This document shows, in pieces, positions 1,684 through 61,739 of a stretch of DNA of 64,000 bases (its first letter is position 1; each line of letters opens with the position of its first letter). Source of the stretch: Isoetes taiwanensis (taxonomy: Eukaryota; Streptophyta; Lycopodiopsida; Isoetales; Isoetaceae); the NCBI GenBank assembly GCA_021234155.1, contig JAJEKV010000014.1, positions 8,573,563 to 8,637,562 on the forward strand. The letters run 5' to 3'. Both the position numbers and the translations under genes were made by a program. The notes below the pieces were generated by a model, which did not search any database, had not been told where the DNA came from, and saw nothing but the letters and a program-made list of their open reading frames with translations.

Positions 1684-2930
1684 TGGCAAACAAGGCCCAG
1701 CGACCCGTTCTTAAGAAGCCACCAAAGCGCCTCAAAGAATCACGCTTATCAACCAGCTCCAACAAATCAACCTCACTGGATCAACAAGCCCAAGAGGAAA
1801 TTTTTCGTGCACTTAATCCTCCAATCCAGTCAAATTGGGTTGGTTTAGTTTCACGCCGCACCAAGGCATCACGCCCCTTGACTATTATTCGAAGGGCACG
1901 CGAACCCGCCTTTGCGGTTGACACCATTCCTCATGGGGACGAAAAAAAGGTTCACTTTGCACCTGACTTGGAGAAGCTCATGCCACATGTTATGCCCAAA
2001 GTTCGCCAAAGCATTTTGAACCTCATGCAAGCTGCTGAAGGCCGCACATTGGCAAATGTTCATGCCACCACTAGAGCTCAACAAAGACAAGATACACCTT
2101 CAACATCTCAACCTCCACGCTCTCAGACATATCCCAATATTGCAGCCGAGGTTGACTTACTCAAAGAAGTTGCTGCTTCCCTGCCACGCACTCCCGCACC
2201 AGTGGAACCAGCAGATCCTTTTTCTCATGTACCTCTCGAACTCCAAGAGGAGCTCGCTAAGATCAAAATTCCTTTAAGCTTGGCAACCATTTTAAAACTC
2301 TGTCCTGCTCTCAAGGACCAGTTACCACTCCCAACTGTTTTAGTTGGGGCTGTGGCTACCTCTACACCCACGGTCCATGCCACGGTGGGAAATCAGCAAG
2401 TCAACCATGTTCAAATCGATGGAGGTAGCGCAGTCAATCTCATCACGGATAAACTCCGCAAACAAATGGGCATCACCCAACTCTTTCGCGCCCCATATGA
2501 CATCAAATTGGCTAATGGCCACATCACGAGACCTCAAGGCGTCACCCCTATTCTTCACATCCACATAGGTGATCTCCGCTTTCCCATGGAATTTGGAGTG
2601 TGGAAAGCTGGCGAAGATCCAGGTGACTATGAAATCTTTGGTAGGCGGACCTTTTCTCCGCCCGGGCAAAGAGTATCCACATCGGGCCGCGGACCGCTTA
2701 GTCATCACCGATGGTCATCTCAATGCCACCATGGACTTGCAAGCAAAGCGGGATCATTTTCATTGACAATGCGGAACCTTCTCTCGGACATTATTCGAAC
2801 TCAAGACATTTCGAATATTTATCAAGTTCAAGCTCCACTGCGAGTGCGCCTCTGTCATCCTATCCCGAAATATGCCGATCCTTGGGGAGAAATGACTCTT
2901 GATCGGGACCGGTACGGGCGCCTTACTTGA
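1684..2930 (+). pseudogene. Aspartic protease region of the first gypsy element
   Basis: The open frame at 1554-2930 begins with a basic, Pro/Ser-rich linker and contains a retropepsin-like core at about 2400-2640. The catalytic motif reads QIDGGSAVNLI: Asp-Gly-Gly-Ser, a D-G-x variant common in plant gypsy proteases. It is followed by the hydrophobic strands expected of the fold (VTPILHIHIGDLRFPMEFGV). Past about 2660 the frame loses similarity to a protease, and the sequence to 3360 is split among frames. The domain would cleave Gag-Pol; here it is part of a dead polyprotein. Confidence 0.7.
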
Positions 2931-3360: not shown

Positions 3361-4130
3361 TGTGCTCAACCCTAATTACCGCGGATCGCGTCAAGGCGGA
3401 AATTGACAAACTCCCTTTGCCGGGTTTGATCTATGAGGTCAAACATTTCGAATGGGTGAGCCCCATCGTCATTGCCCTTAAGCACAATGGTAAGATCCGC
3501 GTGCCATGTAGACTATCGGAAACTCAATCGAGCCACGGGCGTGATCATTTTCCACTTCCTTCACGAGACCAAGTTACGGAAGAAGTGGGCTGGACATGAG
3601 ATGTACTCCTTTATGGATGGTTTTTCTGGCTACAATCAGATCTCCATCAAAGAATCTGATCAACTCAAGACCACTTTCACCACCCCGTGGGGCACTTTTG
3701 CCTACAAGGTGGTTCCTTTTGGATTATCCAACTCTCCTTCAACATTTCAACGCATCATGCTCTCGGTTTTTCATGATTTCATGAAGGAAAATCCCTTCTT
3801 GCAAATTTTTCAAGATGACTTCTCTGCCTACAGTTCCATGGCTGACCATTTGGATAAATTGGAACTCGTCTTCCAGAAATGTGATGAGTCCGGCATTAGT
3901 CTCAATCCTGAGAAATGCACCTTTAAGCGTCACTTACGGTGTTACGTTAGGGCCATGTTGTCGCAAAAGCGGGAATCACCCGATCACGCCAAAATCGATT
4001 GTGTGCTCAAGGCTCAAGCACCAGCCAATATCAAAGAGACACGCTCTTTCCGGGAAAGGTCAATTATTACTCCACCTTCATACCGGATGGCAGCCATTGC
4101 AGATCCCATTCATAAACTCACGGGTGTGAA
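3361..4130 (+). pseudogene. Reverse transcriptase region of the first gypsy element
   Basis: Classic gypsy RT blocks appear in order: EWVSPIVIALKHNGKIR, then a shifted block matching the DYRKLN region, then MDGFSGYNQISIKESD, TTPWGTFAYKVVPFGLSNSP and TFQRIMLSVFHD. The catalytic double aspartate reads FQDDFSAY at about 3810-3835, followed by SLNPEKC in the thumb. Frame changes lie near 3500-3600 and after 3990. Function in the family is copying element RNA to DNA. The FQDD form in place of the usual Y/F-x-DD with a hydrophobic x may reflect mutation or consensus error. Confidence 0.8.
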
Positions 4131-4189
4131 TCCACGGGCTTGGAATTCCCAAAGGAAGCCGCTTCCAACAAACTGAAGCTTTTTGCTTA

Positions 4190-20377: not shown

Positions 20378-22870
20378 TGTAGCATAATGACAGGGGGTTT
20401 TTTTTGCGTTTTTATACACTTTTTGCTAAGGTTTTCCTATGATTTGGTGGCCGTATTCATCTATGTGTACTAAATAGTATTTCTAGAGTGCATCGTTTCT
20501 TGGCCATTGATTTTTTATAAGAGGCAAAATCGTGCGGTTGTAATTAAATTTATCTCATTTGCATAGGGTGGACCATAGTCTAATTTTTGTATTAATTTTT
20601 TTTTTAAGGGGCCGAAAAGGCATGCAAACATCGAACCCATTTGCTAGGGTTTGAAGATCTTCACAAGTTCTTTGCCGATTCGCTTTGTTGGCCGATTCAC
20701 CTGTTCATGATCTTCTGCTTTATGCTAGATATGCAAGCACCGGTGTAAAAATATTTTAGGGTTTCTGCTTCTTGTAAACGGACTCAGATACAGAAGCAAA
20801 CTGATAAATCGATTGGATTTTTTCATGCTATAATGGCCGAAGACTCTGTACCGGATTTGAAGTCCGGATTTGGCAGCGGTTGAGTGAGGATCTTGCATCA
20901 GACAAAGATGGATATGGCATTGGATGATTGAGGTACTTGTCTCGGATTTGGAGTGCAGTATGGAGTCCGGATTTGCCAGCAGCGTTATCTCAGGTTATAG
21001 TCAACTTGGTGTTCGATTTGCATTTTGCACTGCTCTTGTGATCCAGAACAATGCCATTTTGTCTACATCTCGATCCAGCTAGAGGTTCCGCAGCAGTGAG
21101 CAAAGGTCAGTAAAGCAGTTGAATATATAGTTGTAAAACAGGGTTTTGTATGCAGACGGCTATAAAAGTAGAAACCGATGGCCATATTCTGGTAAATCTA
21201 TTCTTCTTGTGTTTGCTTGCTTAAAATAAGTGCTTGGTTTTTGTATCTGTTAACATGATCTAGGGGTCTTTTAAAGCAAGCAAATTTGGCCATGAATCAT
21301 AACCAAGTGCATTATATTTCTTTTAGCTCTTCCTACATTAAATATGTAAACAAGCAGATTCTGTTGCTCTTTCCTTAGATTAGCTAATATTGCCATAGGA
21401 TATGGATGGATACCTGATTTTATTGTAAGTTCTGCAAATAAGAATAATCATCTGCATGGCACTCATGTCTATAAGGTATGGGAATGTCTGAACTAAAATT
21501 TTCTTGGCAGAGAATGTTTCTTCACAATAGAGAGACTATGAAGCATTTCGTAACATCCCATTTCGAGATTTCTTCCTTCTTTATATAGACCAGCGAGTCT
21601 AGGGCAAGGACTAACTTCCACAGTTTCTTGGCTTTTTTCTCAGATTAGGCAATAATCCACATTGCCACAGTCCATATTACAAACAGGATATGGATCAGAG
21701 AGTTTCATAAAGTAACATCATCTCGTATGCTTTGCAATGCAATGATACTGAGCAGTATATCTTCTCCAACACTGCAATGCAATGATACTGAGCAGTATAT
21801 CTTCTCCAACAAAAAAGTGTTATGTTATTTGCTTCTATTGTAAAATAAAGTGTTACGAGATGGTGAAGCATTTGGTGAGATCTCAATCATAGTAAACAGA
21901 TGGTGAAGCATTTGGTGAGATCTCAATCATAGTAAACAGATGGTGAAGCATTTGGTTAAATCTCATTGGGCATTTCTTCCTTGTAAGAATCATCTTTTCA
22001 CTTATTTAGAATTATCTTTAACTCTTGTTATAGTTTACTTTTGAAGGGGCATGCATGGACTCAGACATTCCTTGTTGGCAACTACCATATAAATTGTTGC
22101 AATACATTTATCCTACAACGACCTAGTTTACACCAACACATCTCCACATGCTTTGCATATTCTGGCCAAAAGTTGGCCAAAAGTAGCACGTGGACCTCTT
22201 ATGGGAAGAGGATAAACTTGTGGACTGGTTAATGAACTAAGTATTTTTCAATGTTAATAAATGATTAATCCCACATTTCACATTACATTCGTTGTACCCT
22301 ACATTCATTACATGTGTTCAACTACAATATCCAAACTTAGTAATTAATATTTTAGACTCTTAAATTTTACCTATGTTTTCTTTTGTTAAAGCCCAAAGGG
22401 CCCAATTTTTTTTTTTTGTAAAACAACCCACATAACTACCATTAACATTAATTCACATAAACCATTACATCCAACATTTTTAGATTAAAATCCCCCTAAA
22501 ACCCCCTTTGATTTGGGTGCATATTCACACGAGGGGTGACGTAGGGCAGCGAGAGCCCCTTTAATCGTATAATATATGTATAAAATCAAAACTATTCAGT
22601 AGATACCCTCAAATCTTATAGTATTTTGCAAACTTGAATATACTGTATACAAAAATATGTACAAGCATACCCCACAAACGAGGATCGCTATGTACGGTTT
22701 GGATTGAGGAATAAAGGGCAAATATGCCCATCCAACAGCTCTCGATGCCCGGAGTCACCCCTCGTGTGAATATGCACCCAAATCAAAGGGGGTTTTAGGG
22801 GGATTTTAATCTAAAAATGTTGGATGTAATGATTTATGTGAATTAATGTTAATGGTAGTTATGTGGGTTG
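20378..22870 (+). mobile_element. 2.5 kb insertion element, copy 1, unknown class
   Basis: Absent from the intact LTR at 28.6 kb, so it is an insertion. The left end TGTAGCATAATGACAGGGGG and the following ~300 bases are shared, in inverted orientation, with 62365-62100. The right part (22381-22700) is shared with 60085-59755. Interiors differ between the copies. No transposase is seen, so it is probably a non-autonomous cargo-carrying element. A short exon-like piece (MAEDSVPDLKSGFGSG) sits near 20835-20885, of unknown origin. Confidence 0.7.
21733..21957 (+). repeat. Two adjacent tandem repeats, each of 40 bp period
   Basis: A unit containing AATGATACTGAGCAGTATAT recurs at 21741 and 21781. 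A unit containing GATGGTGAAGCATTTGGTGA recurs at 21858, 21898 and 21938 (the last partial). Both have a 40-base period and lie inside the 2.5 kb element. Confidence 0.85.
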
Positions 22871-22874
22871 TTTT
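22420..22874. repeat. Foldback: near-perfect 121 bp inverted repeat with 213 bp spacer
   Basis: The left arm 22420-22540 and right arm 22754-22874 are reverse complements with about one mismatch. Arms include CCCCCTTTGATTTGGGTGCA and AACCCACATAACTACC. The right arm abuts the LTR sequence TTTTGTAAGG, so it forms the right end of copy 1. Copy 2 of the element carries only the left arm and spacer. Confidence 0.85.
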
Positions 22875-34570: not shown

Positions 34571-34581
34571 TTGAGTAAGTA

Positions 34582-37224
34582 ATGCACAGTCAAGCAGCAA
34601 GAACAAACGGTAGTTTTGAAACCGATTTCAGCAGCAGCGGGTCTTTCAAATTTGAGGGGGGATCCGCCAGCATGCCTCTATCTAATTTAACAACGGCATC
34701 TGGCGAAGCCAGTATTTCATCAGGTAACATGAACGGCTACCAGCCGGCCTTGCAGCAACAGACTTCCAACATATCCGTTGCGCCCACATCCAGCGCTAAT
34801 CCTGCCAAGCGGAAGAGAAATCTTCCTGGAACGCCAGGTAAAAGCTTCAAATCTTATCTACAAAATTTTAATCCATTCCATTTTGTTGTTATTGCTTCTG
34901 TTGCTCAGTGCTGGCGTTATTTGTCTGCAGATCCTGACGCGGAAGTGATTGCACTCTCGCCAAAGACACTCATGGCCACAAACAGATTCGTATGTGAAAT
35001 TTGCAATAAAGGATTTCAGAGAGATCAGAACCTGCAGCTGCACAGACGTGGCCACAATTTGCCATGGAAGCTGAGGCAAAGGACGAGCAAGGAGATTCGT
35101 AAGAGAGTTTACGTTTGCCCGGAGCCTTCGTGTGTCCACCATGAGCCTTCAAGAGCACTAGGTGATCTGACCGGCATCAAGAAACACTTTTGTAGAAAAC
35201 ACGGAGAAAAGAAATGGAAGTGCGACAAATGTTCCAAGAAATATGCAGTTCAATCCGATTGGAAAGCTCATTCCAAAACCTGTGGTACTCGGGAGTACCG
35301 TTGCGACTGTGGAACACTATTTTCCAGGTTCGTTCAAGTTGCCCACTCAAAAATTCATCAAATTGATTTCGTCATGTCCATAGATCTGGTGAATTATAAG
35401 GTTAGAAAAAGCAGCAACCAGAATAGTTTTTTTATGAGAGAAATTGCGAGCGTGCTGTGCTGAGATCACCTAGCCATAGCCTGGCATTAAATGCCAGTTT
35501 TAGATTAACCAAAAATTGGGCTGGGGGGCTGACAGCAGGCCGTTACGGTGCGCATTAGGAAGATCCCAATCGATAGTCAAATGCCCGAATTTGAGAAAGG
35601 GTGATGAGAGCGTTTGAATCTTACAGCATTCCTTGATTTATGCTTAGAATCTAATCAAGGGCAATAGATGGATGTGTTATTTTGAGCATCTAGGGAGAGT
35701 AAAGAAACATTAAGTGTTGTGAGAAGTTAATTCTAACAAGAATGGTTGCGATTTGCAAGCAGGAGGGACAGCTTCATTACGCATAGAGCATTCTGCGATG
35801 CATTGGCGGAAGAGAGCGCCAGGGTAACGGCGGCCAAGCAAGGGGTGCACAGCGGCGAAAGCAGTCTGGATGCAGATCCTTCATTGTCCAAAATGGGAGC
35901 ATCTTCGCCTCAATCAATGCACATGCCATCCTACGATTCCCTCACTTCCATTTCTCGGAATGGATTGCCTGCCAACATCGCCGCTCTTGGTCTGCCGGAA
36001 CATGGCTCCTCCTTCAGATGGGGCCAAAGCGGATCAGCTCCAAGGCTGTCCCTGTGGTTGGATCCAGGTCCCGGCCCTCCGAATGCCCAGCAGATTATGC
36101 ACAACTGTGATTCTGCATCTCCCATGAACCATCTGGACAGCAGCTCTGCCTCTGCTTCCCTTATTCAAGCTGCCAACAAGGAGTTCATGGAATTTGATGC
36201 GTCTCAGTCATCTAGGGGTTCTAGTAACTTTGTCCCCATGCCTACCTCGGGCAATGGAAGCCTTACAAATAGCATTTTTGCTCCCATCAATAGCATGTGT
36301 TCTGTGCTTGGACAGAACATGCCCACATTTTCAGATTACGAAGATTTGGCCAATGGTTTGGACAGAGGTATGAACAACGGAAATGGATCTCTTTCTTTGT
36401 CGTCCACAGTTGGATTGACAAGCACAAGCATGGCCTCCCATGACGTTTCCAGGAACCGGCCAAATAATAATGTATCTTGTTCAGTGTTTAATCAGCAAAC
36501 GACGGGTTCACAGATGTCTGCAACTGCATTGCTGCTGAAAGCTGCACAGATGGGTGCCACCAGCAGCAGTCCATCAATATTGCGTGGATTTGGTTTAACC
36601 TCATCGGATTCTAACTCTAGTGCATCACTGTGGAATCAACAGCAGCAGGAACAAAAGTTATCTAGCAGTAACTCCAATGCTCCTCCTCCTATTCATCAGC
36701 ACCCGTTGCTGAAACGTGCGGGTGAGCTTTTTGGATGCTCCCTTGAATCAAATGCTTTTGGTGGCCAAGAAAGGCCCACAGATAACGTAGGAATGACAGA
36801 ATTTGTATCCTCTATGTCGGACACTTCTGACGTTTTTGGTGCAAGTGTGAGCAACTGGCAACAAATGTTTGGACTGCCTGGAGGTAGCGATGTGGCCAAT
36901 AATGTGCACTTAACAGAGGCTGCAGAAAAATGCACATCAATGCAGGGAACTCCGCATTCCCAAGGAAGCCGTCTTCCTTCAATACAATCCGGTTTCGGGA
37001 GCTTCCCAACAGGGGAGGAACATGATACGTTCACTCGTGACTTCTTAGGAGTTGGTGCATCGAATGGGCTTCCAGGCAGAAATCTGCCTCCCAGGGACCT
37101 GGCTAGCATTACTCCAATCACTGGTCTCAGATCAGATTTTGCTTCCTTCAGAAATCAGAGGGAGAGTCTTAGAACCATTAGTGCCAATGGACCTTCCCAA
37201 GCTGAGGCAGCAGATGCCTCCTAG
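34582..37224 (+). CDS. IDD: INDETERMINATE-DOMAIN (IDD) C2H2 zinc-finger transcription factor
   Basis: Nuclear DNA-binding regulator; the family controls flowering, root patterning, gravitropism and gibberellin responses, often with GRAS partners. Exons 34582-34837, 34931-35327 and 35764-37224 join in frame at GT-AG introns of 93 and 436 bases. The protein has KRKRNLPGTP before the fingers (nuclear signal), then ZF1 FVCEICNKGFQRDQNLQLHR and ZF2 from YVCPEPSCVHHEPSRALGDL. C2HC fingers KWKCDKCSKKYAVQSDWKAH and YRCDCGTLFSRRDSFITHRAFC follow (last His/Cys split by intron 2). C-terminal family motifs are present: MSATALLLKAAQMGATSS and TRDFLGVG. The start fits a Ser-rich N-terminus with SGEASISSG. 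Length of about 700 residues is at the long end of the family. Apparently intact; the only clearly functional host gene here. Confidence 0.95.
34838..34930 (+). other. IDD intron 1
   Basis: GTAAAAG...TCTGCAG, 93 bases, between the KRNLPGTP and DPDAEV blocks. Its length is a multiple of three without a stop, so it also reads through as coding. Family alignment shows it is spliced, because the two blocks are contiguous in known IDD proteins. Confidence 0.85.
35328..35763 (+). other. IDD intron 2
   Basis: GTTCGTT...TTGCAAGCAG, 436 bases, splitting the Ser-Arg-Arg of the last finger (TTTCCAG|GAGGGAC). Contains stops in the read-through frame. Confidence 0.85.
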
Positions 37225-43310: not shown

Positions 43311-43598
43311 CACACCTGCAGTAGGAGCACCGACATCCTACATCTAGGAGATATTGGACATGCAGAGTCAGTTATGTTTCTGATCATCACATAACCATAT
43401 AAAATTATAGTTTATCAGCAAACCTATTACTGCTAAGGTTTTTTCCCTCGGAATTCCTTTGAAATGGGTTTTCTTATTCTTGGATAGTAATAGGCCAGTT
43501 GTTTGTTGTTTGGGTCCCATAGGTCGATTGATCTTCGTGGACGATAAAATTCAATTCAATTCCTTAGATTAAATAATTCTTTTACATTTGTACAGGGT

Positions 43599-45365
43599 GC
43601 TTGGCAGGCTGAAAAGCTACATCCAGCAGTTAATGCAGGCCTAATTGCTCTAATCCCAAAGGTAGATATGCCCATCAATTTTTCAGATTGGAGACCTATC
43701 TCATTAACAAATGTGACATATAAAGTTTTGGCTAAAATCTTTGCCAACAGGATCAAAAAAATTCTTCAGAATAAGATCTGTCCAGTCCAGTCTGGCTTTC
43801 TTCCAGGGAGATGCATCTTGGACAATTTTATTGGAGCTTATGAAGGTCTACAATGGAATAAACTAACCAATCAAGGCTGTGTGCTCTTAAAGTTGGATTT
43901 TAAGAGAGCCTATGACACCATTGACTGGAAATTTCTTCATAGGGCTATGGCACAACTTGGATTTTCAGAACAGGTTATTGGGAAAATAGTTGGCTTCAAT
44001 GCAACTGGCTGTTCAACAGTATTGGTTAATGGCTCTCCTTCTTCCTTTTTTGAGTGCAAGAGAGGGGTTAGACAGGGGTGTCCTTTAGCCCCCTATCTCT
44101 TCCTAATAGTAGCAGAAATGATTACTAGATATATCATGAAGATGCAACAAGATAAGAAAATCAGTTGCCTAAATCTTCCAGACACAAGAGACACTTTATC
44201 AGTAATGCAGTATGCTGATGATACTTTTGTGTTTTTAAAAAGGCAAGGGGACAGTATCCAAAATTTCCTTACTGCCATGGAGCTTTTTGGGAAAGCTTCA
44301 GGAGTGGTTCTGAACAAGGAAAAATGTGCCTTCATTTCTGATAGCCTGGAGGATCACATTGAGGGAATAAATGTTTGTGGTCTTCAGAAAGCTACTAAAC
44401 TGTTGGGTCTTCCATTAGCTCTCAACATGAGTCTACATGGCCTTTGGGAACCCATTGTGACCAAGATAAAGAAAAAGCTCCAAATGTATCCCAAATCTTT
44501 GTCCTTAGCTGGGAGAGTAGAAATAATTAACAGTGTTATTGCCAGCTCTTATGTCTATTTTTCATCGGCAATAATTGCAGACAAAAAAACATACCAGGAG
44601 CTAGAGGTCATTATGAAGGAATTTATTTGGCAAGGCACACATATGGTAGGATGGAAATATTTGACTTTACCTAGAAAGAAAGGAGGATTGGGATGCAAAG
44701 ATCTTTTCTTGCAGGCCCAAGCTTTGGCAGCAAAATTGGTTTGGAGAGCTCTGGACCCAGCTGCTAAATCTCCTGCCCTTGTTTTCACCAGATACTGGGT
44801 CGGGAAGACTACATTAGTAGGAAGTCCATCTACCCCTCATCATCTTCCTGATTCAACCTTTTATCAACTCAATCCAGGGTCTGGTACCTCCACCATAATG
44901 AAAAGGATAATCCAAGCCTGGAACAAGGTATCTGTATGCTTTAAAGCTTATCCAATAGAACAGGTTTCAGAAGACTTCAACTTTTTCTGGCATCAAGGGC
45001 TGGTTAGTGAGGATGATGGATGGAAATACAAGGAATGGATGGATAGGGGCTTGTGCACAATTGGTAGCATGACAGTTGGTGAGAACTGGAAAACATGGCT
45101 AGAAATTTCTAGTCTTGTTCAAGACACCACCTCTAATAGAAACATTTACAGAATCCTAACAAGACATAACAGGGAGAGGGGTGCACAAACAGCTGATCAG
45201 AATTGGACCATGAATGGTAAAGGATATAGTGTGGCTAAAGCTTATTCCTTGCTGTTGGGGTCAGCCAATGGGGCTGCACAGAACAGGAAGCCATTCAGAT
45301 TATTAGAAAAGGATGGAAACTACAATGTGCAAAGAAAGTCATTCTTTTCAGGTGGCTTTTCTTGA
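43599..45365 (+). pseudogene. LINE reverse transcriptase
   Basis: The frame is open from the truncation point, with AWQAEKLHPAVNAGLIALIP upstream of the first ATG at 43668. RT motifs follow: WRPISLTNVTYKVLAK, QSGFLPGRCILDN, LKLDFKRAYDTIDW (motif A), GVRQGCPLAPYLF and QYADDTFVFLKR (motif C, catalytic YADD). KKLQMYPKSLSLAGRVEIIN in the thumb region is typical of plant L1 elements. The RT core itself has no stops and may be recent. It lacks an N-terminus, so it cannot act alone. Confidence 0.85.
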
Positions 45366-45844
45366 ACAAAAGCTTGAAGTCAAATGCTCACAGAGCGAAA
45401 TATAATAACCAAAACTCTGACAGATGTCCTTTAGGTTGTGGCCAAGCTGAATCCTCTACACACATATTTATTTGCCCTTGGCTGACCCCCTTTTGGAACT
45501 GGATAGGCAATCATATTGGTGCTGTTCCAGCTACTGAACATGATCTTTTTGACTTCCTAGCAAATACTTCCTCCTTTGTGGATACAATTAGATCATTATG
45601 CTTGTGGGTAATCTGGAAGCACAGGAACAATGTGGCCATCAATCACCATGCTCCAGATTTGAACTTTCTTAAGACTACCATCCAATTGGAGTTAGCAGAG
45701 GCAGCCATGGCACACAGAATGAATAAGGGATGCAATTATGATAAAAGATGGGATGCTTTGGGCTCTTTTCAAGGGTTCTATGCTTTCTTTTCGTCTTATT
45801 TCAATAACATATCTAATGTCTCTGACAGATTATCTAGTCAGTAA
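45362..45844 (+). pseudogene. LINE zf-RVT tail, shifted frame
   Basis: Continues the LINE in another frame after a shift near 45300. It contains CPLGCGQAESSTHIFICPW, the zinc-binding zf-RVT module, then WVIWKHRNNVAIN, the usual terminal block of plant L1-like proteins. Stop at 45842. Confidence 0.8.
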
Positions 45845-47214: not shown

Positions 47215-47508
47215 CATTGTGGAAATGGTGGAGTTGCTTGCTATGTGAGGCAGGAATGCAAGCATTGTGTGAAAGGTACATGGCAGGCATGTATGGATTA
47301 AGAACAAAGGCAATCATTTATTTGGCTAGAGCAAAAAACTGATGTGGATTTTCTCTATTTTCACAAAAGTCCTTTTGGAGACCCCATATTTTCTCTAATG
47401 AGACGACATACAGTGTATATGGCAGTATGCAATTTGGCTCCACGTCATATGCAAGAATACTTAAATGCATCTAGTGACGATCTGTTTTACAATTTAGAAC
47501 AAGGCATT
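47215..47508 (+). pseudogene. Possible LINE endonuclease fragment
   Basis: A frame reads GGVACYVRQECKHCVKGTWQ, then FLYFHKSPFGDPIF and VYMAVCNLAPRHMQEYL. This resembles the GG(V/I)A-x-YVR ... (A/C)VCY-x-P blocks of AP-endonuclease-type LINE domains. It has one internal stop and is cut off by the LTR beginning at 47509. Confidence 0.35.
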
Positions 47509-47933
47509 TGTTACGAACCATAGGTTAGCAAGTAATCAAAAGATCAAACATCTATTAAGCCAACACTAAAACATTTATGATTCTCAAAACCAGGCCTTTA
47601 GCCCAAAGCTCTCCACCCAACTGGACTCGCGAAATCAAGAATCTCCAAGATAGTCCATGTGCAGTTTATGTCAAGTAAGAAGGAATTTAGGACAAACCAC
47701 CCTAAGAGAATCCTCTCTAAGGAACAAACACAGAGTTTATGGAAGCTGGCAGTTGAAGGAGCAAAAGATGATGGAGATGAGTCCCCCCTTCAATAAGTGC
47801 ATCTCCTCCCCTTATATATTGATCAAGGAGTCTTTTAGAAAGGTAAAGGTGCGTGGGCCAATTATAGAATCTTAATCTTTTCCAAGGCTCCATAAATATC
47901 TCAATTGGTTCAGGTCTTATGTTCAATTCTGCA
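47509..47933 (-). repeat. 3' LTR of the LARD-like element (intact, 425 bp)
   Basis: Reads TGTTACGAACC ... TTCAATTCTGCA on the + strand. It preserves the uninterrupted target GTTTATGTCAAGTAAGAAGG at about 47663-47682, into which the DNA transposon inserted in the other LTR. Confidence 0.85.
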
Positions 47934-48044
47934 ACTATCTCATTCTTGCTTTCCGAACCACTCCTTCGAGCACCACCATATCAGTTCCTCCCCTTCCCGG
48001 GATTGATCGTCCTCGATCAAGAAATTATATAGCAAAATTAGCAT

Positions 48045-49678: not shown

Positions 49679-49690
49679 GCTCTGATACCA
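49679..49690 (-). promoter_or_regulatory. Primer binding site (initiator Met tRNA)
   Basis: The + strand GCTCTGATACCA is the complement of TGGTATCAGAGC, the standard plant initiator-Met primer site, two bases inside the LTR. Confidence 0.9.
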
Positions 49691-49857
49691 CTTGTTACGA
49701 ACCATAGGTTAGCTAGTAATCAAAGATCAAACATCTAGTACGCCAACACTAAAACATTTAAGATTCTCAAAACCAGGCCTTTAGCCCAAAGCTCTCCACC
49801 CAACCGGACTCGCGAAAGCAAGAATCTCCAAGATAGTCCATGCGTAGTTTATGTCAA

Positions 49858-49885
49858 GGTGAAAGTATGCTGGTGGGTAGCAAAA
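49858..49885 (+). repeat. Left terminal inverted repeat
   Basis: 28 bases, exact reverse complement of 57573-57600. Core GGTGAAAGTATGCTGG then TGGGTAGCAAAA. Confidence 0.9.
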
Positions 49886-49970
49886 GCATGCGTCCGGACG
49901 CATGCTTATAGCAGGGTTTTAGCCCGCTTAAAGCACCCCTGCTTTTGCTTAATTTGGGGTGCTTTAAGCG
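49886..49970. repeat. Subterminal palindromes of the transposon
   Basis: GCATGCGTCCGGACGCATGC (49886-49905) is a perfect 20-base palindrome abutting the TIR. A second hairpin has arms CGCTTAAAGCACCCC (49925-49939) and its exact complement (49956-49970) with a 16-base loop. Possible transposase binding sites. Confidence 0.85.
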
Positions 49971-50169
49971 TAACTGCCCGTCATTTTTTTTACGCCCTTC
50001 ATGTACTAACACGTCCACCTCACGAATGAACCGTTAGGATAATGATTGTGGGTTTTTGGCTGGATTTTCGCACGAGTGGTGTGGTAGTACGTTGCAAATT
50101 GGATTACTTCGTCATGGGCCGCGAAAATTCTCCCTCCAATTCAATTATCCTCCCTCTCTCAGGAATTTC

Positions 50170-53100
50170 ATGGCGCTCCCTGATACCGGCCTGGAGGCAA
50201 TCACGCGTTTAGCATTGGATTTTCGGCCTGATGAATCCCAATACAGTGTTCCAAATTTGTTGGATGTCAATCCAACACAGGAAATATCACGTGAAGATCC
50301 AGTTTCCTCTGCAATTTACAAGAAATTGGATGCAGAGAGAAAGAGAGAATACAGATTAAGGAATAAGATGAAAAGAGAAGCGGTTGAACGGGAGGATCTG
50401 AGCATGAGACGCAGGCAAGAAATAGCCAAGCAAGTAGTTGATTACTTCAATAAGCTCACCAAAAAGCATTCACCAGAACTCAAGGCTGATGTGATGAAGA
50501 GGGTGGTTCATCACCACGAAATGGAAATCTCAGAACCTGGACTTTTGCCAAATCCAAAGGAGTGCAAGGCGGAGTCTTTGCTCAACAACTTGAAACAGAC
50601 AATGGCAGCCACAAAGAGGCTAAGGAACCATGATATTTGGAGAGCCAGAACCTCAACACTTGTGATGGCTTCTTCCACAAATTCGAGATGCAATTCCACT
50701 ATGGCAGGGCTGTTAGGTACATCTATTTCTTGTCTTCATGCCTGTGCTTCTTCATGCTTTCAAGTGCTTGTATCTGCTGAGTGATGCTGGCTGGGATATG
50801 TTCATTGATACATGTGCAATATTTCTTATGATAGGTTGCATGAGGTCAACAATTGCAACTGCTGCATTAAGGAAATCGGAAGCCTTCCTTGGAAATGGTC
50901 CGTGGTCTGCTTTCCAAAAGAGGTTGAGGTGCGATTCTCTCACCCCTGCTTGCAAGCAAAGCATAACAGAATTCTGGAAAGAAAACAGCAGAGTCTCTCC
51001 TTGCAAGAAAGATGTTGTGAACACTGTTGGAGAGTCAGGCTTCCGAATTTCTTATCCCTTGCACCTTCTGGAGGTCACACAGGTATAAGTTTCCATACAA
51101 ACTTTTTTTTCTGCTATTTCTAACCAAAGGCCACCATTCAGCTGCAGCTATATCAACAATACAAAAAGGGACATCCTGAACACCCTGTTTGCTTAAAGGC
51201 TTTCGAGAAGTTGAAGCCTATTTATGTGAAGAAAGTATCAGAAAGGGAAACCTGTTGTTGCATATACCATATGAAGTTGGAGTATGCCAGGGTAGCACTG
51301 AATGCATTAAGGTCAGCGAAAACTGGATTCCATGGTGAAGAGTGCAAGTGCACCTTGAGGTCTGTGGACTGGTGAGAAGTGTTCGGCCAGACCAACATAA
51401 TTATGACTCAACCAATGAGCTCACGGAGGGTCGTGGGTTTGCAACAAGAGCGAGGGTGAAGAATGGTATAAACATGACTGCTTGATGCAGACATGTCAGA
51501 AGTGTGGCACGAAAAGTCTTCCTATATGTCCAAGAGAAAGAGAGAATCACGAGTTCTTGCTTGAATGGAAGACGTTTGAAAAGGTAATACTCTCTTTATT
51601 GTTTGCTGAAGCATGCTGATATGTGCTGTCATGCGCTGACTACTGCTTTTGTGCTTTCAACTTGCGCTGATCTTCTTTTTTTTATGCTACAGACCTTGTT
51701 ACAGATTCCAGTGGAGACAGAAGAAGCTGATGGAGTTGCAGCCTGCGTTACCAAGGAAGTGCCAGGTGGCAGCAGAAAGAAAAGATCTAATGCCACCAAG
51801 AAGGGAAACCAAAGTAAGAAGTCCAAGGTAGCTGGTGGGACACGGCCTGAAGCTGCAGCACAAGCTGAGAAGAATGGAAACAAAAGTAAGAAATCCAAGG
51901 CAGCTGGTAGGACACAGCCTGAAGCTGCAGCACAAGTTGAGAAGAAGGGAAACAAAAGTAAGAAATCCAAAATTTGGTGGGACCTGACTGAAGCTGCAAA
52001 GACAAGATGAGACCTCAAATGGCAAGGGAAAAAAAAAAGAAAGGACCAAAGCCAGTTCTTAGATTGTCTTACAAGAGAACGGCAGTGAAGGCTTTCATTT
52101 CATATCTGTGTTCCACGTTGAAGATATTCGTGTCACACAATTACAGGGCTAGGTGGCAGGCCATGCAATTCAAGAGGTGCTTGGACAATATCCAAGATGG
52201 CACCATTGTTTCTGTAATTGATTTTCTTTGAGAATTACTGACATCAAAATACAAAGGGAGGTTCAAAGCGGCATTGGCACAATGACCAAATAACAATTTC
52301 GTCCACATCAATTATAGGATGGACAAATGACTCTGGGATCGAGAAAGCTATTGAAGGAAACCCATTTTACTTGAGTGATGACAAGATTCATGACACTCTT
52401 TTTGTGCAACACCGTCTTAGAAAGCACAATTCATGGCTAGTATCAAATGGTGTAGAATTCTCCGGGCATATAGTTTGGTGGGATGGTTGTTCTAGCCAAT
52501 TCAAATCTGCGGACCATTCTATTTCCTACCAAGATATCACCACGAGCTAGGGAAGGAAATAATATGGAATTTCTTTGGGACAGCCCATGGTAAGGGAGAG
52601 CACGATGGGCAAGGGGCAGTCCTCAAAGGGGCATTCACTAGAGAGCAGCTCAAGTATGATGGAGTGAGATTTAGGGGTGCTGCTGATGCCTGTGAATTCG
52701 CTATGAGTTGGAATGAAGGTGCCAGCAACGGGGACATCAAGAGGTAATATGCTTTCATCTGCATTCATCTGCTTTTAACGTGCTTTCATCTGCTTCACAA
52801 AGTGCTTTTATCTGCTTTTATCTGCTGTGTAATGCTGTAATGTGCCTCTGTACTGTATGTGAACTGCAATAGTTGTTGCTGGCTTTTTGCAGGCACTTTT
52901 GGTTCATTGGAAAGGATGATGTTGATAGGACAGACCGGCTGGACCCGTGGCTGGGAGTGGAAGGGACGAAGGAAATACACAAAGATCGGGACATACTTGG
53001 CCAAATCAAGCACAAGGGTGGCTCATAGAGGTTTAAGTTGTTTCTGTGGTAACTGTTTGAAAGGAAACTGGTCATCTTGTGTGAACAAGCAGAGGTTAAA

Positions 53101-53558
53101 GAATTGGAAATATGTTACTCTAAAGCCAGAAAAGTCTACTGGTGAAGGTACTGAAGACGAAATCGATGAGGCATTTTTTGAAGGTGATGGAGAATGGCTT
53201 AGTGGAAACATAGAGGAAGGTGATAACTTTGTTTGTTGTAGCCGAGGAGGGAAATCGGGGAGAATGCAGATTTCTATGTGGTCAAATGTGTTAAGCGAGG
53301 CATATCCTTGATGTAATTGTCAAGGATATTTCGGGTCAGACCTTCAATATCGATGAACATGTGTTGGCTGGTTTGTACTATCTTTGTCCGGCCCGATGGT
53401 ACTTTGGGAGCTACTTGAAGACAAAGGTCCGACCTTCCAAAGATATCATCGCGTATCGCCATCAAGTTTGAGATGAATCGATTCACGGCACTAACAGATT
53501 TTCCCTTGATCAGGCTACTCACCAGATGATCCTTGACAGTCTGCCATATGAAGGTTGA
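50170..53558 (+). pseudogene. Transposase-like gene of the TIR element (frameshifted)
   Basis: Likely the mobilising enzyme, by position and motifs; not proven. The first real ATG is 50170. Exons about 50170-50716, 50835-51082, 51142-51583, 51693-52743 and 52893-53558 are separated by GT-AG introns. Order: a basic helical N-terminal region (KKLDAERKREYRLRNKMKRE); SRVSPCKKDVVN and CCCIYHMKLEYARVALNALR (about 50985-51310); three 24-residue Lys-rich repeats; WQAMQFKRCLDNIQDGTIVS; DF with ENY, then RHWHNDQITI (52218-52305); WWDGCSSQFKSAD (about 52478-52515); FFGTAHGKGEHDGQGAVLKG (52565-52625); LSCFCGNCLKGNWSSC (53034-53085); and ending CPARWYFGSYLKTKV. The D, D, D/E spacing suggests a DDE-type core. 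Frame breaks lie near 50650, 51380, 52010, 52230 and 53310. From memory, similar motif sets occur in uncharacterised animal proteins. Confidence 0.7.
51800..51975 (+). repeat. Three 72 bp tandem repeats encoding Lys-rich segments
   Basis: Units starting near 51800, 51872 and 51944 encode KKGNQSKKSKVAGGTRPEAA-like 24-residue repeats. Basic KKSK cores look like nuclear localisation signals within the transposase-like gene. Confidence 0.8.
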
Positions 53559-53869
53559 ATATGCTTTGACCTAGTTGTTTTATCATTTTAACAGGTCTGT
53601 AGTTACTTGTGTACTTGTCTCAAATTTTGATCATTATATTGGAGACAATGCTTGTGAGTATTGGAGTCTTTTAGTATTGGAAACAATGCTTGTAGTAGTC
53701 TTTGTATTGGAGTATTTTAGTCTTTGGAAACAATGCTTGTAGTATTGCGAGTAAGCTTGATATATATTAGAAAATTGTACACTCAACATTTGAGACATCT
53801 TACAAGATCACTCAATACTCAAGATATAACACAAAGTATCTGCATATATTACAAAAAGTAGTGTACAAT
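53559..53869. other. Spacer between the convergent transposon genes
   Basis: Contains repeated TTGGAGTATT / GAAACAATGCTTGTAGTA words (about 53640-53750). No gene. Presumably the shared 3' region. Confidence 0.5.
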
Positions 53870-56800
53870 GGTTACTTCATAAGTCATCGAAGTCCTCAAA
53901 TCTATGCTCGCCGCCGGGAAGGGTGCCCAAAGAAATTTGCCTTTGTACTTCAATAGGAGCATTGAGGATATAGTAGGTCGAGACAAGGTAGTTGTTGAGA
54001 CGGTAATCCAAAGATCAAGAATCGCCTCTCGAGGGCCAACCATGCATCGGTGAAATCAATTTGTGAGATCGTTTCTGCATCTTGTATGAGAGGCCAAGTA
54101 TTCCAAAGCAGGACACACAAACTACGCAAAAAAATTGTCCTCTTCTTGCCCCTTGAAAGGCATAACAGAAGCGGTTGTGTGTGCGGGGGTTTAGAAACCC
54201 TTTGTGCGGTTTGTCATCAACCAAGAAAATCATACCATGATATTGAGGAAAATCCTCAAGAACAACCTTCAACTCCTTGAAAAATAGTTGCTTTTTCAGG
54301 TCTTTGGTTGGATGCTCGCATGCATAGCAATGCTCTTGACCATATATCTTCAAGAATCTGGTCTGCAGATCAGGGAACAATGCATCCACCATATCCCTTG
54401 TATTCCGAAGTAGAGAAGCACTCCAAATCACAACATCAAACCTCTGCAGTGCCCACTCCACAAACTCATGATACCCTGGTCTGCAAATGAGGTACTTACT
54501 TGCAGTTTCTTTTACAACATGGTTCGTTTGTGGTGGATGCAAGATTTTTTGATTCATTCTCCTCTGTTATTAATGTGCCCGATTACACCATTTATGTCAA
54601 GCACCATGCACTTCCGTGCGGGTGTCCATCCCTCGGCGTTTGCAACCCTTTGTCGATGGGCTGCCGCATCGTGCTTTATGCGTCTTTGGGCTGTCTTTGG
54701 GAAGTGCTATATCCGGACGTCTTTGGAAGTTCTTTGCGACCTCTTTGGACTCGGTTTATCTTTGCTACCAGGTGATGGAGAGTGCTGATAGCCATAGCTA
54801 GATACATCCTTACTAGTATCTCCCTGTCCCCAATGTATGGGTGTTTCCTGGCTATCAGTAACCCGTACCAAGTGGTGGCTTAGGGTCCTTGGTCTCCTGC
54901 AAAATCAAAAGTGGTGCTACAATTACCAACCTGGCTGGCGAGGACATTATGCCAAGTGAAATAAGACAAGTAAAATAACTGCTTGAACTTAAATATTGGA
55001 TTGCACCTTTTATATGTAAGAGTTTGTTTTGCACTTTGGTTTCTTCATTATCCGTGCGGGTTCTCTCACTATCTTGAGCCTCAGTTGATTAAGCACCACT
55101 TGTGGCTGCCTTCTCCTTCGCATGCAAATGCATATTGATCCCTAGGTTGAAACTTCGAAACAAATTTTACAAGGACACAATGGGGAAAAACATATATTAT
55201 GGTATTACACAAAAACCTTTTAAGCGATCGTTTTGCCAAGTCTTGTGCAAACAAAATTGGCCCCTGAAACGAAAGTACATATAAATTACATTAGATTTTG
55301 TTTTTTTCCTAGTGCCACGTCTATAGGCACATCCTCATCAACCGAATCATCGACTCACCCTCACTCTCGGGCTCCGGGACCTTTTTGGTCCCGGACCTTG
55401 AGAACTTGTGATTCGGCTCACAACCTTGTTCACTGCTTATCCACTATATTGGTCTTCAACATCCTTATGCCGCCTGCATCAACGGTGTTAGAGGAGGCCT
55501 TTGTAGAGGTTCTTTGCAGAATTTGGAACTATATTGTATTTTCGGCATCGTCGCCGAACTACCGGAATCGCTTTGGACCGTGTTGGTGTCTTTTGCACGG
55601 TGCTTTTGGTCTTTGCAATGTCTTCAGCCGACCGCTTGCCTCGTCTTTGTTCACTTTGTCTCTGGCGCTTCTAATGTACCCACTTCAGAAACAAACGCGT
55701 GTACCTTTTTGGCTGTTCTTGCTTGTGGAGTTCGAGTCCTTGTAGACTTGTGTCCGGGGTCCTTTACTAAGAGGTGTTTTGACATGCTTCCTTTTCTGTT
55801 GATATCACGGAGTTGTAGCTACCACCTCATCTAGGTCAATTGTCTCAACTATTTGTTTGTGTGTTGCCCCAAACATGTAAGGGTTCTGCTATTTGTCTTC
55901 CCCAATTCCTCCACTAAGCCTCTTTGGGGCTGTTTTACGAGCATTCGAGGCGGTGTGTCTTCTCCATAAGCAAACTCAGGCGGTGACATGATATCGTGGC
56001 CACATTTCAGCTTCGGACTTAGGGTGTAATCATCCGGAATGCCGGCCCGCATGTGGAGCATCGCTCCTCATCTCCAATTGGCAACTTTGAATGTCACCGG
56101 GATAGATGCTCACAAGCTGGCCAGCTCTCCTTGTAAGTTCCCTAAGCCTGTTGAGATTACAGTAAATCTTTGGCTTTTGCAAGTTGCGCCGGTGTTTGCA
56201 ACCTCGGCGGCTATAGTGGCCACTGTTGAACTATCCCTCATCTATTGGGCCACCCCCATTTCAACAAGGGCTTTGAGCATGTACTCGCCATGTCTTTCTC
56301 TCTCTCAAGCTCGAGCTTCTCAGAGGCACCGACATCGGGACACAGAGCTGCTTGAAGGCGTGAGATGTTGTCTTTAATTTTCTGCAATTTCTCTTACGAA
56401 GCCAAGAAGAAAGCTCCCTTAGCACGGGGACTGGACAACTAGCTCCTTCTTGGAGACTAAATCGGCTGCTTTGCGTGTCTAGGGTTTCCCCGCAAATCTT
56501 TGCATAGGACTTCAGGCGTGATATGTTCTCCCCATAAGTTGTGTGTAATTTGTTGGGCGCGATGCAAAGCTCTAATGGACGGCCTCCCTTCTAATTTAAT
56601 ACCGGTGCCTCCGAACCCGGCCTTTCGCTATGCTTTTCGGTCTTTGTGGTTTGCCGAGATTTGCTGGCCTCGCCTACGCTTCTTTGGAGCACCGGGCGCT
56701 TGCCGGTTCACTTTTAACCTTCTTCTTTGTAGGCTCTACTCTTTCCGCAACGCTGCCCAATTAACCTTGAACTTCTGTGGATCCTGCTTTGCTCTGAGGC

Positions 56801-57251
56801 AGTTATTGAATGCAAATAGGTATGATACTGTCTTTCTAACTTCTCTGTTCTTCAACCCGTCCGGGTATATTTTGCTCAGAAGCTCTATTAGAGCTTCTTC
56901 GTGCTCTGGCCTCACCTTGTCAATGGAAGTTTTGCCAGGAATGACCCCGTTGGTATCCCAAACTTCATTGTACTGCTGCAGAAATGAGGTCTGCGTTGAA
57001 ATTGAGAGGGATGAACGCCCTCGTTTGGCGGACACTGCATACGCATGGAAGTCTTCTTTGGTTCGGCAATCAGCTAGGTCCGGTCTTAAGGGAACGTTTC
57101 TTCCGGCCCGAAGAATGCAAGAAAATCGAATTAAATCGTGGTTGAACCCTAAACCCATTGAAATTTTGTTTTGTTGCTTTTTGCTTACCCGGATAATGGG
57201 TTCCGTTGGAATTACTGCTTGAGCGGGCGGATCAATCACCTTCTTTACCAT
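53870..57251 (-). pseudogene. Second gene of the TIR element, NIF/FCP1-like HAD phosphatase domain
   Basis: The first ATG in good context is 57249-57251 (MVKKVIDPPAQAVIPTEPII). The N-terminal 170 residues run to 56736 and include SISTQTSFLQQYNEVWDTNG and EALIELLSKIYPDGLKNREV, with no family I recognise. The middle (56.7-54.7 kb) is basic, Pro/Ser/Lys-rich and frame-broken (TKKKVKSEPASAR; QTIVETIDLDEVV). The C-terminal part is a NIF-type HAD domain: KCMVLDINGVIGHI (54616-54575), RPGYHEFVEWALQRFDVVIW, SASLLRNTRDMVDALFPDLQ and GMIFLVDDKPHKGF (to about 54160). Family members dephosphorylate Ser/Thr in nuclear proteins such as the RNA polymerase II tail. Here the second catalytic Asp is Asn (DIN-G), as in some plant relatives, so activity is uncertain. 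A frame change lies near 54555. Confidence 0.65.
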
Positions 57252-57489
57252 GGTTGATCTGTTTGTATAAAGTGGAAATCCGAAAGCGCAAATTCGCGGG
57301 TTGCTTGGCCGGAGTAGAGAAAGTTGGGGAAGAGAGATTTGGAAAAACACAAATTCGAAAGTTCGTTCGTTTGTCTAGTGGTTCCAGATTGCAGGGGTCG
57401 CTTTCATTACTGGGGGCGGCAAACAGGTAATGATTGTATAAACGGGTACCGGCTAGACGAATAGACGGGCAGAATATAGGTGGTACTAT

Positions 57490-57572
57490 ATAGGTGAAGG
57501 GTGGGAAAAAAATGTATGACGGGTGGGAAAAAATGTATTTTGGGTGCTGGTGCTGGTGCTGGGGTCGCGTTT
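57490..57572 (+). repeat. Subterminal direct repeats at the right end
   Basis: GGGTGGGAAAAAAATGTAT-like units occur twice (about 57498 and 57520), followed by (GGTGCT)n. They differ from the left subterminal region, so the ends are asymmetric inside the TIRs. Confidence 0.75.
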
Positions 57573-57600
57573 TTTTGCTACCCACCAGCATACTTTCACC
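57573..57600 (-). repeat. Right terminal inverted repeat
   Basis: 28 bases, reverse complement of 49858-49885, followed by CGTCAAGCAAGAAGG of the LTR. Confidence 0.9.
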
Positions 57601-57874
57601 CGTCAAGCAAGAAGGGATTTAGGACAAAACACCCTTAGAGAATCCTCTCTGAGGAACAACTGTAGAGTTTATAGAAGCTGGCAAGCGGCAGTTGAAGGAG
57701 TCGAAGATGATGGAGATGGGTCCCCCCTCCAATAAGTGCACCTCTTCCCCTTATATAGGGATTAAGGAGCCTTTTTAGAAAAAGGTAAAGGTTCGTGGGC
57801 CAACTATAGAATCTCAACCTTTTCCAAGGTTCCATAAATATCTCAATGGTTCAGGTCTTATGTTCAATTCCGCA

Positions 57875-59757: not shown

Positions 59758-61739
59758 TGGACCATACATAGCGATCCTCGTTTGTGGGGTACGCAAGTAC
59801 AAATTTTTGTATACTGTATATTAAGGTTTGCAAAATACTATAAGGTTTGAGAGAATGTACTTAATGGTGTTAATTTTGTACATGTATTGTAAAATTTTTG
59901 AGGCTCTCGCTGCCCTACGTAACCCCCCGTGTGAATATGCACCCAAACCAAAGGGGGTTTAAGGGGGATTTTAATTTAAATGTGTCAAATGCAATGGTTT
60001 GTATTAATAAATGTTAATGGCATATATGCGTTGGTTGTTATATTGTAAAAAAATTTGGGCCCTTCGGGCCCTAATAAAGCCCTTCGGTCACTTTGCACAC
60101 TAAAAATGGCATAAATGCATGTAACAATTTTAAAAACACTTTTGCATGTAGACAAGCCTAAAATCACAAAAATGCGTTGTTTTAATATAAATACAATGAT
60201 GTGCATTAGTAGCATGATGGGATGCTTGCTATGGGCAAACACAAATCACATATGATGGATTATAGGTTTCCAAGGCTATGAATGAAATTGTCCTGATGAG
60301 AAATAGTAAAACATAGTGCCTTCTAACATTGAACATATGTTGTAGCATATGTTGTAGCATCGAATATCTCTGCATGACGATAACAAGTTTGCCAAGCAAA
60401 TATTACCAACCAGTGGGACTTGAACCCATTTTGTCCTTGTAATCATCTTAGTAAAGAAACTTGTGTACCTGTAAGAGCATAAATGCAAAAAAAATCCAGA
60501 GCATTTATCCAGCCAATACTTCTGAAATCCCATTGAATATGTATACTGGCATGATGAGAGACACCATTAGCAGTTATAACATTCTCTGCTGATTTTCATG
60601 TTCATCCTGTGACTAGGCTGATGCTTTTACGAACAGTGGACTTCTTAGCATAAGCTTATGTTGCCCTCTCACACATCTACAGCAATCGCCTCAACAAGTC
60701 TTTTAGTTTGTCACAAAAGGTCGTTCTACCCAGATTAAGTTACAGTAATATCATCCACATATGAATAAGTTCACAGACAAGAAACTATGATATTACCTCT
60801 ATCACAGGATCCAACATGGCAGCCATAACAGGATCATACTCCGGCTTAGAAACTAGCCTCCATTCGCTTCTCCTTTCTGTTCGTTACAACTTGCAACACT
60901 GAAACCATCCCAGAATCTAACTTCCGGGATACCTTCCGACTTTAATACTGCTACTGCAACAGCAAAAGATCACGTCACAAGTGTCAAATGGATTTAAATA
61001 AATGGGAAATAGCTTCAAATGCTCATGCTATTCTAAAGTGCGCCGTAAATCTGTCCAGACATGTGATCTTGTGTTAAAAAGGTTCCCTTCTTACACACAC
61101 AAAAATGACCTGAATAAGAACCAACCGAGGGAAGATTTTCCAAGCTGCAAATCATCAACAATCATAAATCATCTGACATAATTTCAATGGGTTCATCTAT
61201 TTAAATAGCAGTGCGATGACCAAGTTTTAAGGATCTAAATCTCAATGTTTTTGGATGGAATAAGATTTGGAAGCAAATAAGAGTCAAAGCCAAGAGCAAG
61301 CTGAGAGATTTGAAAACGATTATATGATCTTTTATGTCATGGCCATGAGAAATACAAAAACGTTTTGAGAGTAATGCGATGTTTGGTAATTCAAAAAAAA
61401 AGGGATTTCAAACCTGGTAGAAGACTTTTGGGCGTCGCTAGTCTGATCATTGGAGACCAAAGTATTATGACTAAGAATTCATTACAAGCTGGGGAGGCCT
61501 AAAAATGGAGCTTTCTATACAAGCGCTGGATCAGAACTTCAATGGCAGAGGTCTTTCTAGCAGAAGCCTAATCATTCTCCTATCAGCCTCCGTACAAATT
61601 CCTCAAGAAGACCATTTTAACTGCCTGAAAGCTCAGAACACAAAGAAACATCCATTTTGGCTTGAATAGAAAGGTTTCGGGCCAGCAAATACCTGGATCT
61701 TGCGGAGTTTTGCAGAAACGCCCCAAACTTAGTACAGAG

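Follow-up and report, generated by a model that had tools for sequence, protein, structure and literature searches.

The locus described here lies in a stretch of 64,000 nucleotides (hereafter the window) from Isoetes taiwanensis (assembly GCA_021234155.1, contig JAJEKV010000014.1, positions 8,573,563 to 8,637,562 of the forward strand). One long terminal repeat (LTR) of a small LTR element in this window is interrupted by a 7745 bp insertion (49857-57601) that carries terminal inverted repeats (TIRs) and two genes in convergent orientation, a transposase-like gene (gene 1) and a gene with RING-H2 and NIF domains (gene 2). The TIRs are identical over 28 bp (49858-49885 and 57573-57600), and approximately 5e-8 perfect inverted pairs of this length would be expected by chance per window of equal size and composition. 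Perfect 28-bp TIRs and two convergent genes had both been proposed in an earlier note made from the sequence alone, and both were recovered here, the genes as broken frames interrupted by stops and frameshifts. Coordinates of the individual features are provided in Table 1.

Table 1. Features of the inserted element and its insertion site, in window coordinates
Feature	Position	Strand	Remark
Sister LTR, empty site GTCA at 47670-47673	47505..47939	.	
Primer-binding-site-like TGGTATCAGAGC, adjoins interrupted LTR	49679..49690	-	
Left target-site duplication GTCA	49853..49856	.	4-bp duplication identical in 15/16 copies
Left TIR, family form GGGTRAAAGTATGCTGGTGGGTA..., first base A here	49857..49885	+	
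24-bp perfect palindrome AAGCATGCGTCC/GGACGCATGCTT, inner edge of left TIR	49884..49907	.	
Subterminal 15-bp inverted repeat CGCTTAAAGCACCCC/GGGGTGCTTTAAGCG	49925..49970	.	
Gene 1, transposase-like, broken in window copy	50170..53526	+	several putative GT-AG introns, by eye
Gene 1 Cys/His clusters (CCCIYH; WYKHDCLMQTCQKCG), possible zinc-binding region	51142..51583	+	by eye
Gene 1 candidate catalytic core	52040..52744	+	triad assignment putative
Candidate D1 in VIDF	~52220	+	
Candidate D2 in WWDGCSSQFK	~52482	+	
Candidate D3 in HGKGEHDG	~52604	+	
Gene 2: coiled-coil-like stretch (by eye), RING-H2, basic linker (by eye), NIF; broken	53880..57251	-	
NIF (HAD, FCP1/SCP-like) domain, LDINGV motif I, IWSAS, VDD	54150..54706	-	
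Degenerate RING-H2 of gene 2	55941..56060	-	pattern readable in L009, L011, L012, L020, L023
Right TIR, terminal letters CTTTCACCC	57573..57601	-	
Right target-site duplication GTCA	57602..57605	.	sequence and 4-bp rule across copies

The host assembly (1.66 Gb) was searched by using the whole element. At least 38 matches were obtained, of which at least eight (the window copy included) cover the full query at 90-100% identity and one further at 80%; these counts are lower bounds because 22 of 1558 first-look candidates were scored. Twenty copies (L009-L028), chosen by whole-element similarity, were then fetched. Fifteen of them could be traced to both ends and, together with the window copy, gave 16 copies with GGG...CCC termini, some carrying single substitutions; L012, L014, L016, L021, and L025, for which at least one end was not located, were left out of the duplication count. 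Identical 4-bp duplications flank 15 of these 16 copies, and the duplication of L023 differs by one base.

As the earlier note had observed, the sister LTR retains the empty site and reads TTTAT GTCA AGTAAG, whereas the filled site reads TTTAT GTCA, then the element (AGGTGAAAG...CTTTCACCC), then GTCA AGCAAG. The target-site duplication (TSD) of the window copy is GTCA. A 6-bp duplication, implied by the flanks GTCAAG in that note, was rejected on the count of two-ended copies; GTCAAG is seen at the left flank because the first base of the element is A here, where most copies carry G. Given a duplication of 4 bp across copies, the element therefore spans 49857-57601, and the AG on the left is its own start. 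The primer-binding-site-like sequence beside the interrupted LTR is presumably a match to the initiator-Met tRNA, for which reason the host LTR element was read as a minus-strand element.

Copies of this family (family 1) fall into three subfamilies: one that is window-like (L009-L017 and L020), one made up of L019, L022, L023, and the truncated L021, and a mosaic subfamily (L018, L024, L026, L027, L028, and L030); L025 was too short for placement. Relative to the window copy, the mosaic copies are 63-75% identical over the right 2.7 kb, a stretch that takes in the 5' part of gene 2, and 83-94% identical over most other sequence, NIF included. Judged by these identities, the mosaic pattern is module exchange.

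Gene 1 is conserved at three core motifs, VIDF, W[SW]DGCSSQFK, and HGKGEHDGQGA, so that the DGCxxQFK and HGKG blocks first noticed in the window copy (there DGCSSQFK and HGKGEHDG) held up. In the open reading of L012 the candidate catalytic triad is spaced D-86-D-40-D. CCC[IQ]YH was readable in 21 of 25 scanned sequences and the second Cys/His cluster in 13 of the 25. No Pfam transposase family was matched at E values up to 5 by the joined gene 1 or by nine core sequences, a negative that is limited by the HMMER filters, which discard most weak matches. Pfam transposase models exist for MULE, CACTA, hAT, PIF/Harbinger, KDZ, and piggyBac, and superfamilies with such models were rejected on this result. 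A PDB sequence search returned no relative of gene 1, and no relatives were found in IMG/VR viral contigs or GTDB genomes. Because of its position, its copy number, and its conservation, gene 1 is regarded as a probable transposase.

Gene 2 was read in pieces from several copies. In the open reading of L020, a coiled-coil-like stretch (by eye) is followed by a RING-H2 with all ligands and then by a basic linker containing an acidic-hydrophobic IDLDEVV stretch, which we take to be similar to a SUMO-interacting motif (SIM-like). NIF follows the linker in open frames of other copies (69-77 bits). In the window copy, Pfam NIF (PF03031) was matched at E 3.6e-14 on the joined frames and 1.2e-11 on one uninterrupted piece; bit scores were 53.2 for the window, 69.1 for L030, and 76.8 for a second family described below, all above the gathering cut-off of 21.8. 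The best PDB relative of the NIF profile was UBLCP1 (E 9.5e-10), and a model of the L030 domain (mean predicted local distance difference test score, pLDDT, 67, best over approximately the first 100 residues) matched CTDNEP1, SCP1-3, Tim50, Fcp1, and UBLCP1. The RING-H2 ligand pattern is C-x2-C-x(n)-C-x-H-x2-H-x2-C-x(n)-C-x2-C. Pfam zf-RING_2 matched L020 at E 7.7e-4 in the whole reading and 1.7e-5 in an excised piece, both under the curated cut-off, and the RING assignment rests on the ligand pattern and on cross-family conservation, all eight Cys/His ligands being kept across both families (three sequences aligned). The earlier note had called gene 2 a phosphatase gene; the NIF-like HAD domain was confirmed by the Pfam match and by the likeness of the L030 model to CTD-phosphatase structures, and the RING-H2 had been overlooked.

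The phosphatase reading itself was not supported. Classical NIF phosphatases carry a DxDx[T/V] catalytic motif in which the second Asp is the general acid/base. Of 28 aligned NIF copies, 26 carry Asn at that position (23 from family 1, counting the window copy, two from family 2, and one from a third class) and none carries Asp; the other two (L018 and L027) are broken there. Since DxN replaces DxD, the general acid/base Asp is absent from the NIF copies and phosphatase catalysis by gene 2 is unproven. The host FCP1-like gene L029, the single one read, has the canonical LDLDHTLL (i.e., DLDHT). The domain could then be a pseudo-enzyme scaffold, with RING as the sole active part of gene 2, for which the Tim50 domain is an example of a scaffold. 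We consider this quite possible, at somewhat less than even chances: the Asn is nearly universal among the aligned copies and Tim50 is among the nearest folds, set against which the readable copies retain the nucleophile Asp, the Ser/Thr of motif II, and the Asp pair of motif III. Elsewhere in the genome, twelve strong NIF-profile hits lie at 22.9-26.8 Mb of contig C1018, possibly an array of host phosphatase genes.

Gene 2 recurs with the element. NIF similarity was present in 18 of the 20 fetched copies, some of it partial or frame-broken (L020 retains residues 1-85 of the domain). The two copies without NIF are L025, a fragment, and L028, which carries the same TIRs, as the earlier note had anticipated for a refuting copy, but has an internal deletion that also removed the second half of the core; that condition applies in part, here and in the two newly fetched core hits without NIF downstream (see below). 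Since these copies had been selected by whole-element similarity, two independent hit lists were compiled, consisting of the best 150 scored of 8367 first-look transposase core candidates and the best 150 scored of 4795 NIF candidates across the whole genome. A convergent NIF hit was located 56-1502 bp downstream (median gap 1142 bp) for 62 of the best 150 scored core hits, where approximately 0.03 pairs would be expected with randomly placed hits; three further pairs within 6 kb fell outside this convergent-downstream rule. A random draw of eight from the 88 core hits that lacked a listed partner gave six with NIF (five of seven newly fetched, plus C1076, which is L009, where NIF had already been seen). 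The proposal that the phosphatase-like gene belongs to the element stood on all of these counts and on the second family.

That family was reached through L031, a locus picked by the NIF profile alone, in which a convergent core (52% identical to family 1) accompanies the NIF domain (32%). A matching core was found beside each of the three further NIF hits of this class that were examined (L040-L042). At C1025 a 6888 bp element of family 2 is bounded by a 30-bp perfect TIR (GGGTGTAAATATGGTTCTGCTACCCAAAAA; GGGT...ACCC) and an AGTA duplication, and its gene 2 carries RING and NIF. Between the families, gene 2 is 27% identical (E 6e-23) over the coil and RING. Given the same layout and a RING-NIF gene in the second family, the pairing of gene 1 and gene 2 most simply predates the split of the two. 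The family-2 copy L031 also runs into a retrotransposon-like frame that closely resembles window positions 1548-2930 (by eye). A third NIF class (L032) is approximately 28% identical, reads LDMNGVL, and is multi-copy by its score pattern; no transposase core was found in the fetched 3.9 kb (approximately 2.9 kb downstream of the gene), and this class may belong to another mobile element.

Selective constraint was estimated as the ratio of nonsynonymous to synonymous divergence (dN/dS, raw distance) on pairs that share some sequences and were taken from open frames only, a restriction that disfavours stops but has no such effect on missense changes. Core pairs of gene 1 gave 0.11 (P 1e-5) and 0.18 (P 2e-6). 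For NIF, constraint was significant in three of five pairs, at 0.29 (P 2e-4), 0.34 (P 6e-5), and 0.65 (P 0.01), and the RING/coil region gave 0.62 (P 0.02). Gene 2 might alternatively be a functionless host fragment that was captured recently, a Pack-TYPE hitchhiker; gene capture is known for plant transposons (PMC8903248), and host NIF genes such as L029 exist. We regard such a capture as very improbable here, given that the same gene 2 architecture is found in two families about 30% identical, that its NIF domain is constrained and its position and orientation fixed, and that its DxN is unlike the one host FCP1-like gene read. A one-off capture was rejected on the 62 convergent pairs among 150 and the shared plan of the second family, which likewise contradicts the single captured host gene named in the earlier note as a possible refutation.

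The locus is probably best explained as a decayed member of a plant DNA transposon lineage that has two genes and many copies and in which gene 2 has an accessory role. Confidence is high in the structural part of this explanation, the two-gene TIR transposon lineage, and the lineage is most likely a cut-and-paste transposon, possibly Sola-like by description, with an old accessory regulator. Several results weigh against this explanation. Gene 1 lacks a sequence match to a known transposase in the Pfam and PDB searches, and the AlphaFold model of its core, in which the order of strands and helices resembles RNase H, was poor (mean pLDDT 38.7). Some core pairs in the full pairwise table were weakly constrained (dN/dS up to 0.83), and the family-2 pair at the C-terminus of gene 1 was too close to give significant constraint (P 0.34). 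Two of the five NIF pairs were likewise without significant constraint (0.62, P 0.17; family 2, 0.45, P 0.23). RING scores were below the Pfam cut-off of 27.3 bits (20.1 in family 1, 25.4 in the excised 58-residue piece, and 12.7 in family 2). Two of the seven newly fetched core hits (L034 and L037) had no NIF 650-2300 bp downstream.

Under the proposed mechanism, gene 1 would supply the transposase: an RNase-H-like core with three Asp residues would make 4-bp staggered cuts, and the Cys/His clusters would bind the element ends. Gene 2 would be a nuclear accessory protein that is dimerised by its coiled-coil-like stretch, recruits a ubiquitin (or SUMO) E2 through RING-H2, binds nucleic acid or chromatin through the basic linker, and through NIF recognises a client carrying phospho-Ser/Thr, which it may also dephosphorylate. 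With DxN at motif I, a domain that recognises its client but turns it over poorly is considered as likely as a true phosphatase. The use thought likeliest is that gene 2 marks or removes a phosphorylated host factor of the transcription or silencing machinery that limits the element, and would thereby aid expression and spread rather than catalysis of the cut. This action on a phosphorylated host factor is put forward tentatively, as somewhat doubtful. A narrower version, in which gene 2 is a phospho-directed ubiquitin ligase whose DxN NIF was retooled into a phospho-Ser/Thr reader steering RING-H2, is unlikely on present evidence; if true, a RING-H2 would be aimed at phosphorylated host proteins (RNA polymerase tails or silencing factors), aiding spread to possibly thousands of sites. 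To our knowledge, plant transposons are restrained by silencing and few carry genes acting against the host.

A rival reading casts gene 2 as a cofactor of transposition, comparable to TNP1 of En/Spm or MURB of Mu: it would bridge the element ends or attach to subterminal sequence, and RING and NIF would serve transpososome assembly or turnover in place of host manipulation. The two-gene layout with its orientation conserved in two families would suit such a role, as would the subterminal repeats and the palindrome of the window copy. The usual targets of RING and NIF domains are proteins and no DNA-binding domain was recognised in gene 2 at a curated cut-off, and we judge a cofactor of this kind rather unlikely.

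Elsewhere in the window, the sole clear host gene among the scanned open frames encodes a BIRD-IDD zinc-finger transcription factor (34579-37224), a plant-specific type that marks the window as DNA of a land plant. Two reverse-transcriptase remains (Pfam RVT_1) lie at 43548-45844 and 3460-4176 and are LINE-like (long interspersed nuclear element) and gypsy-like by eye. A long hairpin at 22420-22874 has perfect inverted arms of 42 and 78 bp, with a diverged relative at 59761-60078.

Compared with the NIF proteins of the SCP, CTDNEP1, Fcp1, UBLCP1, and Tim50 types, gene 2 shares the fold and most motifs, and differs in having DxN in place of DxD at motif I, in its fusion to RING-H2, and in being carried by a transposon. 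Sola elements are described as having TIRs, a DDD transposase, 4-bp TSDs, and sizes of mostly 2-9 kb, and as reported in a moss (PMC10741241). In TIRs with GGG...CCC ends, TSD length (AGTA of family 2 included), candidate DDD triad, and size, the present elements resemble the described superfamily, and Sola2 provides a precedent for an extra gene, Fanzor1, in elements with 4-bp TSDs (PMC3627910). There is close to an even chance that the element is a member of this described superfamily and that the accessory gene alone is new; the likeness is by description and not by transposase sequence, TSDs of 4 bp occur in other superfamilies too, the duplications here are not AT-rich, unlike the described Sola2 cases, and the accessory gene is RING-NIF and not Fanzor1 (PMC3627910).

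Dada elements are similarly large and mostly intron-containing, some with an added enzyme domain, but are described with 6-7 bp TSDs, no TIRs, and small-RNA-gene targets (PMC3706591). With 4-bp TSDs, TIRs, and an LTR as the target here, and no tRNA or Rfam match in the window, Dada as described was excluded. GingerRoot occurs in a clubmoss, and IS3EU/GingerRoot elements are given 6-bp TSDs and TA..TA or rarely TG..CA termini (PMC10045372), unlike the 4 bp and GGG..CCC found here; as described, they were excluded by TSD and termini. In the titles and abstract beginnings of open-licence papers, no transposon with an NIF/FCP1 gene was found; stray mentions consisted of both terms once in a Trichomonas intron paper (PMC12316389) and FCP1 once in PMC9177992.

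The nearest functional precedent is provided by fungal DNA transposons that carry genes for TET/JBP dioxygenases, thought to counter silencing, or for alpha-kinases, the kinase gene of TET-carrying IS3EU families lying opposite to the transposase (PMC12730594). A host-type regulatory enzyme has been added in both cases, but as RING-NIF here versus a kinase or dioxygenase there, in different superfamilies, and in a plant rather than in fungi. The elements described here allow one to ask whether a DxN NIF binds phosphoproteins without turnover, and a RING-NIF protein kept beside a transposase-like gene through deep divergence offers a handle on the use of host-type protein-modification domains by transposons.

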